Below are positions 43,797-44,178 of a DNA stretch of 64,000 bases, in pieces (position 1 is the stretch's first letter; each line of letters starts with the position of its first letter). The stretch comes from Gammaproteobacteria bacterium (lineage in GTDB: Bacteria; Pseudomonadota; Gammaproteobacteria; SZUA-140), in contig JACREF010000007.1 of the NCBI GenBank assembly GCA_016218365.1, positions 1 through 64,000 on the forward strand. The letters run 5' to 3'. Below the pieces are notes generated by a model. That model made no database searches. It was given only the letters and a program-made list of their open reading frames with translations, and was not told the DNA's origin. The position numbers and the translations under genes were made by a program.

Positions 43797-43886
43797 GGGC
43801 TGTTTCCGCCGTTGCGCGTCGAGGTAAGCACCGCTACGGGCAGCGGTGGCGGCAGCGTAAGCAGCAAGTAACAAATAATATCTATA

Positions 43887-44036
43887 GGAACCTCTGATCA
43901 ATTCAGAGGTTCCTGCGGCACACGGATGTGCCACCACTACAATGACAGCAGGTCATTGAAAATGAAGGAAAGTGAAAACCACGTTTTCCGCTTTCCGTGC
44001 TCTGAGAATTCCAGGATGGAATTATTCAGAGCTTCC
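43887..44036 (+). mobile_element. Five-hairpin MITE-like element, copy 2 (complete)
   Basis: The 150-bp element starts GGAACCTCTGATCAATTC, and its right end reads GGAAGCTCTGAATAATTC on the minus strand, giving terminal inverted repeats with 15 of 18 matches. TATA flanks both ends (43883-43886 and 44037-44040) as a likely target duplication. Inside, five hairpins follow each other: 43887-43913 (11-bp stem), 43915-43934, 43940-43958, 43967-43996 (GGAAAG.GAAAAC) and 43999-44032 (GCTCTGA.AATTCC). There is no transposase, so mobilisation would need a related IS elsewhere. Transcribed, it would be a tightly folded RNA. Confidence 0.85.
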
Positions 44037-44178
44037 TATAGAGAGTATAAGACCAGAAGCAGAAATTCCTTTGGGCCTGCCCTGACTATTATGCTAGCAT
44101 TAACCATATAACCATCATATTGATATATGTAATATATATTTTTGGGTGATAGGGTCTCAGCTGCACACGGAGGCGTAA
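44037..44178 (+). promoter_or_regulatory. AT-rich leader upstream of the lipoprotein gene
   Basis: The 140 bases after the mobile element include a very AT-rich stretch (about 44104-44141, TATATGTAATATATATTTTT) in a GC-rich neighbourhood, probably holding the promoter. A purine-rich CACGGAGGCG gives the ribosome-binding site for 44179. Confidence 0.5.

Follow-up and report, generated by a model that had tools for sequence, protein, structure and literature searches.

A candidate transposon-mobilised CsrA/RsmA decoy RNA in Gammaproteobacteria

Structure of the element and covariation of its hairpins

The analysed stretch of DNA (the window) comprises positions 1 to 64,000 of contig JACREF010000007.1 from a Gammaproteobacteria bacterium of the lineage SZUA-140 (assembly GCA_016218365.1). 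It contains a short non-coding element, whose features are listed in Table 1. The sequence-only reading had described a 150-bp element with TATA on both sides, 18-bp terminal inverted repeats and five adjoining hairpins, and all of this held. The terminal repeats GGAACCTCTGATCAATTC and GGAAGCTCTGAATAATTC agree at 15 of 18 positions, and an inverted-repeat search at the element returned a 30-nt inverted pair with 83% identity. The RNA fold has an energy of -73.5 kcal/mol (z -9.0 against dinucleotide shuffles) and the DNA fold has z -9.3. Both are thus about 9 standard deviations below the shuffles, and none of 200 shuffles was as low in either case.

A second copy occupies positions 1-146 of the window and is 93.9% identical to the element; the contig begins inside it. 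The reported replacement of C43:G59 in this copy by A43941:T43957 in the element is correct. It was not mentioned in the sequence-only reading that hairpin 3 of the window copy carries mismatches in its outer part, where the left arm of one variant is combined with the right arm of another.

Table 1. Positions of the element, its parts and the second copy in the window
Feature	Positions	Strand	Remark or basis
Element GGAA..TTCC, family A copy of the IS5-group MITE	43887-44036	+	150 bp, non-coding; score 165.1 bits with covariance model R1
Left target duplication TATA	43883-43886	.	4-bp duplication is the rule for the family
Right target duplication TATA	44037-44040	.	read from sequence
Hairpin 1, left transposon end and inverted copy of that end, AGGAACCTCTGA-TCAAT-TCAGAGGTTCCT	43886-43914	+	12/12 pairs covary in alignment A3
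Hairpin 2, first CsrA/RsmA-type hairpin	43915-43934	+	fold, covariation, loop counts
CANGGANG site (CACGGATG), hexaloop A-N-GGA-X closed by C:G	43921-43928	+	loop counts; published consensus
Hairpin 3, without conserved loop, arms chimeric in the window copy	43935-43964	+	arm variants, covariation
Hairpin 4, GAAAACCACGTTTTC-type tip	43967-43996	+	fold, covariation
Hairpin 5, outer arms formed by the right end of the transposon and the inverted copy of that end, tip with second GGA loop	43999-44032	+	fold, covariation, loop counts
Second GGA site CAGGATG	44012-44018	+	loop counts
Second window copy (C21:1-138), truncated on its 5' side by contig start	1-138	+	R1 match

Covariation was analysed in alignment A3, which has 69 rows from the 67 loci searched. 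Standard pairs occupy 95.0% of its cells (79.1% after shuffling), and both partners have changed in 52 of 59 pairs (28.9 after shuffling). The covariation score is 0.433, compared with 0.139 in shuffled alignments and 0.055-0.088 when the partners are slid, and all five hairpins contribute to it. In the 20 copies (19 loci) from the search of the phylum, 93.5% of cells are paired, 47 of 59 pairs are changed on both sides, and the score is 0.497. The alignments were fitted to the model and are thus biased toward its structure. However, given the controls with slid partners and the size of the effect, this bias is insufficient as an explanation. The sequence-only reading had asked for a test of stem covariation, and would have been refuted if only two copies existed without further covariation. 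Neither holds: there are many copies, and covariation is far above chance in all five hairpins. On this basis there is little doubt that a five-hairpin structure of the + strand RNA has been kept by selection.

The earlier claim was that the selected molecule is folded single-stranded DNA or RNA. A one-base change in a Watson-Crick pair yields G:U or A:C equally often unless pairing in the + strand RNA is selected. Over all pairs there is a small excess of G:U over A:C (135 vs 96). When pairs below 75% canonical are left out, the counts become 130 vs 53 in the 69 rows, 78 vs 28 in a subset of 44 rows, and 37 vs 13 in the phylum copies. This filter was set after three positions without real pairing had been noticed, and related rows are not independent. 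Therefore the excess is support for + strand RNA rather than proof, and it tips the balance from single-stranded DNA toward RNA.

Copies, transposon ends and distribution

The genome containing the window (2.26 Mb in 33 contigs) was searched for further copies. A DNA search found about 20 of them at 79-98% identity, as well as many matches to the ends only. The covariance model R1, built from 34 sequences, gave 43 matches at E 1e-4; 30 of these, the collection that the sequence-only reading had called for, score above 60 bits, and a few of the 13 weaker ones merely repeat, on the opposite strand, copies that are already in the count. The copies fall into two families, A and B, that differ in their ends. 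Contigs C1, C19, C21, C23 and C26 end inside copies of the element, and therefore the copy number in this genome is a lower bound.

The sequence-only reading had also considered the element mobile, noted a resemblance of its ends to those of IS5-like transposons, and proposed a search for an insertion sequence with matching ends. These claims held. On contig C14 of the same genome, two matches to the ends only lie 1.17 kb from each other and enclose an intact IS5-family insertion sequence. This encodes a DDE transposase (PF01609; NF033581 at 2e-104), has GGAACCTCTGATTAAT at either end and is flanked by a perfect 4-bp duplication. Relatives of this transposase were found in nine of the 37 strong carriers. 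Insertion sequences with ends like those of the MITE also occur in genomes G099, G028, G143, G109 and G279. The ends are readable in six genomes, and in five of them (all but G028, where no MITE copies were read) the insertion sequence and the MITE have ends of the same type, not identical letter for letter.

Perfect 4-bp target duplications were observed in 69 of the 107 copies with readable flanks. This set was narrowed from 229 through 207 to 107 by removal of weak matches on the opposite strand, duplicates, and copies with cut or divergent ends. The duplication is TTAA in 27 copies, TTAG in ten, CTAA in nine, CTAG in five, and another sequence in 18, so that 51 of the 69 conform to YTAR; the TATA of the window copy does not. 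The YTAR target is the rule of the IS5 group. The element satisfies the tested criteria for a MITE, being short, non-coding and multicopy, and that for the IS5 group, as it shares its terminal inverted repeats with an IS5-family element found in its own genome. Because of the mostly YTAR 4-bp duplications and the IS5-family elements with matching ends, it is very likely a non-autonomous IS5-group transposon, transposition in trans being inferred from sequence. Genome G143 has identically scoring copies of the element and five transposase matches, which suggests that the element has moved there recently.

Family B in the same genome includes L243, L246, L248, L250, L003:2861-3014, L015:967-1117 and some truncated copies. 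Their ends are CAGGNTGTTGAAAAA, their core hairpins follow one another as in family A, and each of their loops, CGCAAGGACGCG and GGCATGGACGGCC, conforms to CANGGANG. Two copies from the phylum draw, L303 and L307, have GTTGA-type and AGAGCCTGTCGCAG-type ends. With every end type (A, B, L303, L307) the end is doubled as a palindrome, once in hairpin 1 and once in the outer arms of hairpin 5. The core hairpins keep their loops under these other end types, which supports the earlier claim that the fold is selected beyond the needs of transposase ends.

Several other repeats were observed in the same genome. MITEs on contigs C9, C29 and C26 (L029:1499-1631, L259, L261) have the same or similar GGAACCTCTGA ends and a different interior with a ATTCCCGCTTTCGCGGGAATGAC hairpin and no core. 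A third MITE type on C28 and C24 (L247, L249) has ends CAGCTTGTTGAAAAACGCATC, no GGA core hairpins and, in one of the two, a CTAG duplication. The family B copy L003:2861-3014 is inserted at TTAA inside the end of an L029-type MITE, forming a nested insertion. Since repeats with shared ends and without the core exist in this genome, the core is not required by the ends.

In the class draw, 72 of 369 genomes (64 of the 314 of good quality) carry the element according to R1. The carriers span some 44 families, as counted from the table, and usually have several copies per genome. The element was not found by R1 in the three other genomes of the same family in this draw, nor by DNA search in any of 19 relatives from that family. 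Among 398 genomes drawn from the phylum there were 44 carriers at E 1e-8, all outside the class except G000, G383 and G490, and mostly from one family. A GGA pattern scan of named genomes returned Gammaproteobacteria MAGs, Halothiobacillus, Thioalkalivibrio, Immundisolibacter and Chromatiales MAGs. It yielded at least 113 stretches, and only loci among 80 of these were used. The family A consensus had no match in the plasmid collection.

Some copies have an altered architecture. Genome G038 contains tandem arrays of units lacking hairpin 1. These arrays (L047, L057, L079, L080, L082, L083) consist of units of about 115-150 bp with hairpins 2-5, so that the GGA sites are multiplied. In the copy L299:490-711, hairpins 2 and 3 are separated by some 70 additional bases, which contain a further GGA hairpin.

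GGA loops and similarity to Rsm RNAs

No function for the fold had been proposed in the sequence-only reading; the loops now point to CsrA/RsmA. Hairpin 2 has the consensus A-C-A-N-G-G-A-N-G-U in 67 of the 69 rows of A3, the other two being left out. The C/A, the GGA and the following G show little or no variation; each N position uses all four bases. Because part of the set had been found with a GGA pattern, the main counts were restricted to the 44 rows found independently of it. In these rows GGA is present in 43/43 loops of hairpin 2, with CANGGANG in 40/43, and in 44/44 loops of hairpin 5, where the full CANGGANG match is seen only in 8/44. It is nearly absent from the other loops (0/42 in hairpin 1, 3/44 in hairpin 3, 0/44 in hairpin 4). 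The most usual sequence of hairpin 5 is CCAGGAUGG, which includes CAGGAUG, the CsrB repeat. In alignment A2, where 29 of 103 rows were dropped for scores below 65 bits and identical rows were then merged, all 71 distinct rows, degraded copies included, give GGA in 66/68 loops of hairpin 2 and 70/71 of hairpin 5.

The stems of the phylum copies are new (GCAGCC..GGCTGC, CTAC..GTAG), yet GGA is retained in 18 of 20 in hairpin 2 and 19 of 20 in hairpin 5. CANGGANG is found in 15/20 and 7/20 of these hairpins, respectively, and in 8/20 copies hairpin 5 has a CAGGANG pentaloop. It should be noted that the model favours the loops of its training rows, and strongly divergent loops would be under-sampled.

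The consensus of RsmE sites is (A/U)CANGGANG(U/A) (PMC6849547), and the high-affinity form is an ANGGAX hexaloop directly on the stem, N and X being looped out (PMC4005645). Hairpin 2 is such a hexaloop on a C:G pair, and its free positions match those looped out in the RsmE complexes. Thus the tested sequence criteria for a decoy RNA are fulfilled: hairpin loops carry GGA, one or more of them is an ANGGAX hexaloop placed on a stem, and there are at least two sites per RNA (hairpins 2 and 5). Binding of the element RNA to CsrA/RsmA is inferred from sequence, without binding data; it is likely, and the best explanation by a wide margin.

The genome containing the window has two CsrA matches and so also satisfies the host criterion for a decoy RNA. 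In the class draw CsrA was matched in 312 of 369 genomes, and its presence is no different in carriers (64/72) and non-carriers (248/297; Fisher p 0.36). All 37 carriers whose best element match has E up to 1e-28 have CsrA (Fisher p 0.003). However, this cut-off was chosen after the table had been seen, and the test ignores relatedness. The eight carriers without a CsrA match have weaker element matches, and several of these genomes are incomplete.

With Rfam at permissive settings, the best non-tRNA match to family B copies is RsmW (RF02809) of Pseudomonas aeruginosa, at 41.9, 35.5, 30.7 and 30.5 bits. The top match (E 2.5e-4) covers the full length of the model (1-124 of 124). L307, from another lineage, also matches it at full length (35.9 bits, E 0.022). 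Aligned along their whole length, these copies agree with RsmW in the order of hairpins and in the two GGA hairpins, so that family B and L307 meet the full-length alignment criterion for the four-hairpin layout of RsmW. However, none of the matches (30.5-41.9 bits) reaches the gathering score of 52 bits. None of the family A copies scanned with Rfam matches RsmW, and the window copy gave only a 14.9-bit RsmV fragment. RsmW was matched in only one of the 19 phylum loci, and a class-wide search with strict filters found it in 0/369 genomes, which carries no information as the controls were silent too.

RsmW has a Kd of 11.5 nM for RsmA, and an rsmY rsmZ mutant regains biofilm in its presence (PMC4950607). 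RsmW lacks a promoter of its own, is released from the PA4570 3' UTR by processing, and has been described as missing from other pseudomonads (PMC4950607), as would be expected of an insertion-derived RNA. On the other hand, it is described as a single gene, not as a repeat or transposon (PMC4950607). Homology of RsmW and the family B element, inferred from a full-length match below threshold, is likely. It is also plausible that RsmW is a settled copy of the element, although the P. aeruginosa locus itself is outside our data.

The element thus resembles several known systems and differs from each of them. GGAA-type ends, YTAR 4-bp duplications and multiple copies are common to it and to IS5-group MITEs and IS5-family insertion sequences (NF033581), from which it differs in its conserved RNA module with CsrA-type loops and in its ends, doubled into locally folding palindromes. 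The decoy RNAs CsrB, RsmX, RsmY and RsmZ also have at least two GGA loop motifs per RNA and the high-affinity ANGGAX loop. However, they are fixed host genes, usually controlled by GacA, whereas the element is mobile, multicopy and without a recognised promoter. The 5'tnpA RNA of IS200 is a transposon-derived sRNA for which Hfq binding was shown and CsrA binding only suggested (PMC12594629). It is, as the element is inferred to be, a regulatory RNA from a transposon, but it is a part of the transposase mRNA. The TwoAYGGAY motif is a table entry without accession (PMC2864571); its name implies two AYGGAY loops. In the literature searched, which largely excluded subscription sources, no description of a MITE or repeat with CsrA sites was found.

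Alternative explanations and proposed mechanism

One alternative is a plain IS5-group MITE without RNA function, in which polymerase template switching on quasi-palindromes keeps the hairpin arms alike. Indeed, the arms of hairpin 3 occur as concerted variants (CATTTTC/GAAAATG, CACTAC/GTAGTG, CATCGTC/GACGATG), chimeric arms are found in L001, L003 and L018, the insertions have no orientation bias, and MITEs of the same genome share the ends without the core. However, template switching corrects arms and not loops, and 40/43 rows retain the CANGGANG loop, whereas the loops of hairpins 1 and 3 vary. The loops also persist outside the class despite different stems, and the excess of G:U over A:C would not be expected if only DNA palindromes were corrected. 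Thus this explanation is unlikely. Still less likely is that the structure acts as single-stranded DNA or DNA hairpins, in a transposition intermediate or through cruciform recognition. In its favour are the DNA fold far below the shuffles (z -9.3) and the palindromised ends in hairpins 1 and 5. Against it, the movers are DDE-type transposases, the partner insertion sequence in the same genome has only the ends in common with the element, the loop consensus is that of an RNA-binding protein, and the G:U excess favours + strand RNA.

Another possibility is a structured RNA with a different partner or role (RNase III, Hfq/ProQ, stabilisation of transcripts, insulation of insertions), the GGA loops not serving CsrA. 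Five stable stems would be substrates of RNase III, as are NEMIS- and ERIC-like repeats, and a transposon-derived sRNA binding Hfq is known (IS200 5'tnpA, PMC12594629). However, this leaves unexplained both why two hairpins present GGA loops in which N and X are free and why the best Rfam matches are in the Rsm clan, and we consider it improbable.

The best reading overall is therefore that of a transposon-mobilised CsrA/RsmA decoy RNA, which is likely but inferred, as there are no transcript or binding data. In the proposed mechanism, IS5-family transposases recognise the ends of the element and insert it at YTAR-like sites with 4-bp duplication, as the sequences show. Its + strand, ends included, encodes the five-hairpin RNA that covariation shows to be kept by selection. 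The further steps are inferred. A copy would be transcribed, probably by read-through from adjacent genes, as is RsmW. A CsrA/RsmA dimer would clamp the loops of hairpins 2 and 5, and the RNA would act as a decoy titrating the protein away from mRNAs. Such activity would be the reason why the fold and the loops are kept while stem sequences and transposon ends change. Whether the effect in the cell is measurable could go either way, in the absence of expression data.

The genomic context of 124 sites was analysed with a simple ORF caller: 36 are in sense and 30 in antisense orientation to neighbouring genes, 20 lie between convergent and 23 between divergent genes, and 15 are inside ORFs. No orientation bias was found among the 66 sites between co-directional genes (36 sense vs 30 antisense), and therefore read-through is not visibly selected. 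A promoter and terminator scan of one copy found no promoter-like site inside the element.

A bolder reading, slightly less likely than not, is that of a selfish class of regulatory RNAs: a CsrA/RsmA decoy that would spread as a transposon and seed dozens of sites for the regulator per genome. As parts of the same joint reading, the decoy would swap transposon ends on moving to another insertion sequence lineage, its immobilised descendants would become host sRNAs, RsmW of P. aeruginosa among them, and the copy number would set the cellular CsrA buffer. It is no more than a guess that titration of CsrA may favour the element itself, e.g. by relieving repression of the transposase or adjacent genes. 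Some transposase leaders have GGA near the start codon; as this GGA overlaps the Shine-Dalgarno region, it lends the guess no support. In many bacteria CsrA/RsmA governs carbon use, motility, biofilm and virulence; its decoys are regarded as fixed host genes. If the reading is true, a decoy multiplying by transposition rewires global regulation one insertion at a time, orphan Rsm RNAs such as RsmW acquire an origin, and selection for function operates inside a bacterial MITE, a class usually seen as junk.

The pattern scan also matched loci in Tahibacter, which were rejected as copies of the element, being a different repeat. In Tahibacter harae this repeat (L116:2545-2660 and L152:4410-4530) contains the GGA hairpins GCACAAGGATGTGC, GGGCCAGGATGGCCC and GGGCAGGATGCCC, and it is possibly another repeat of the CsrA type.
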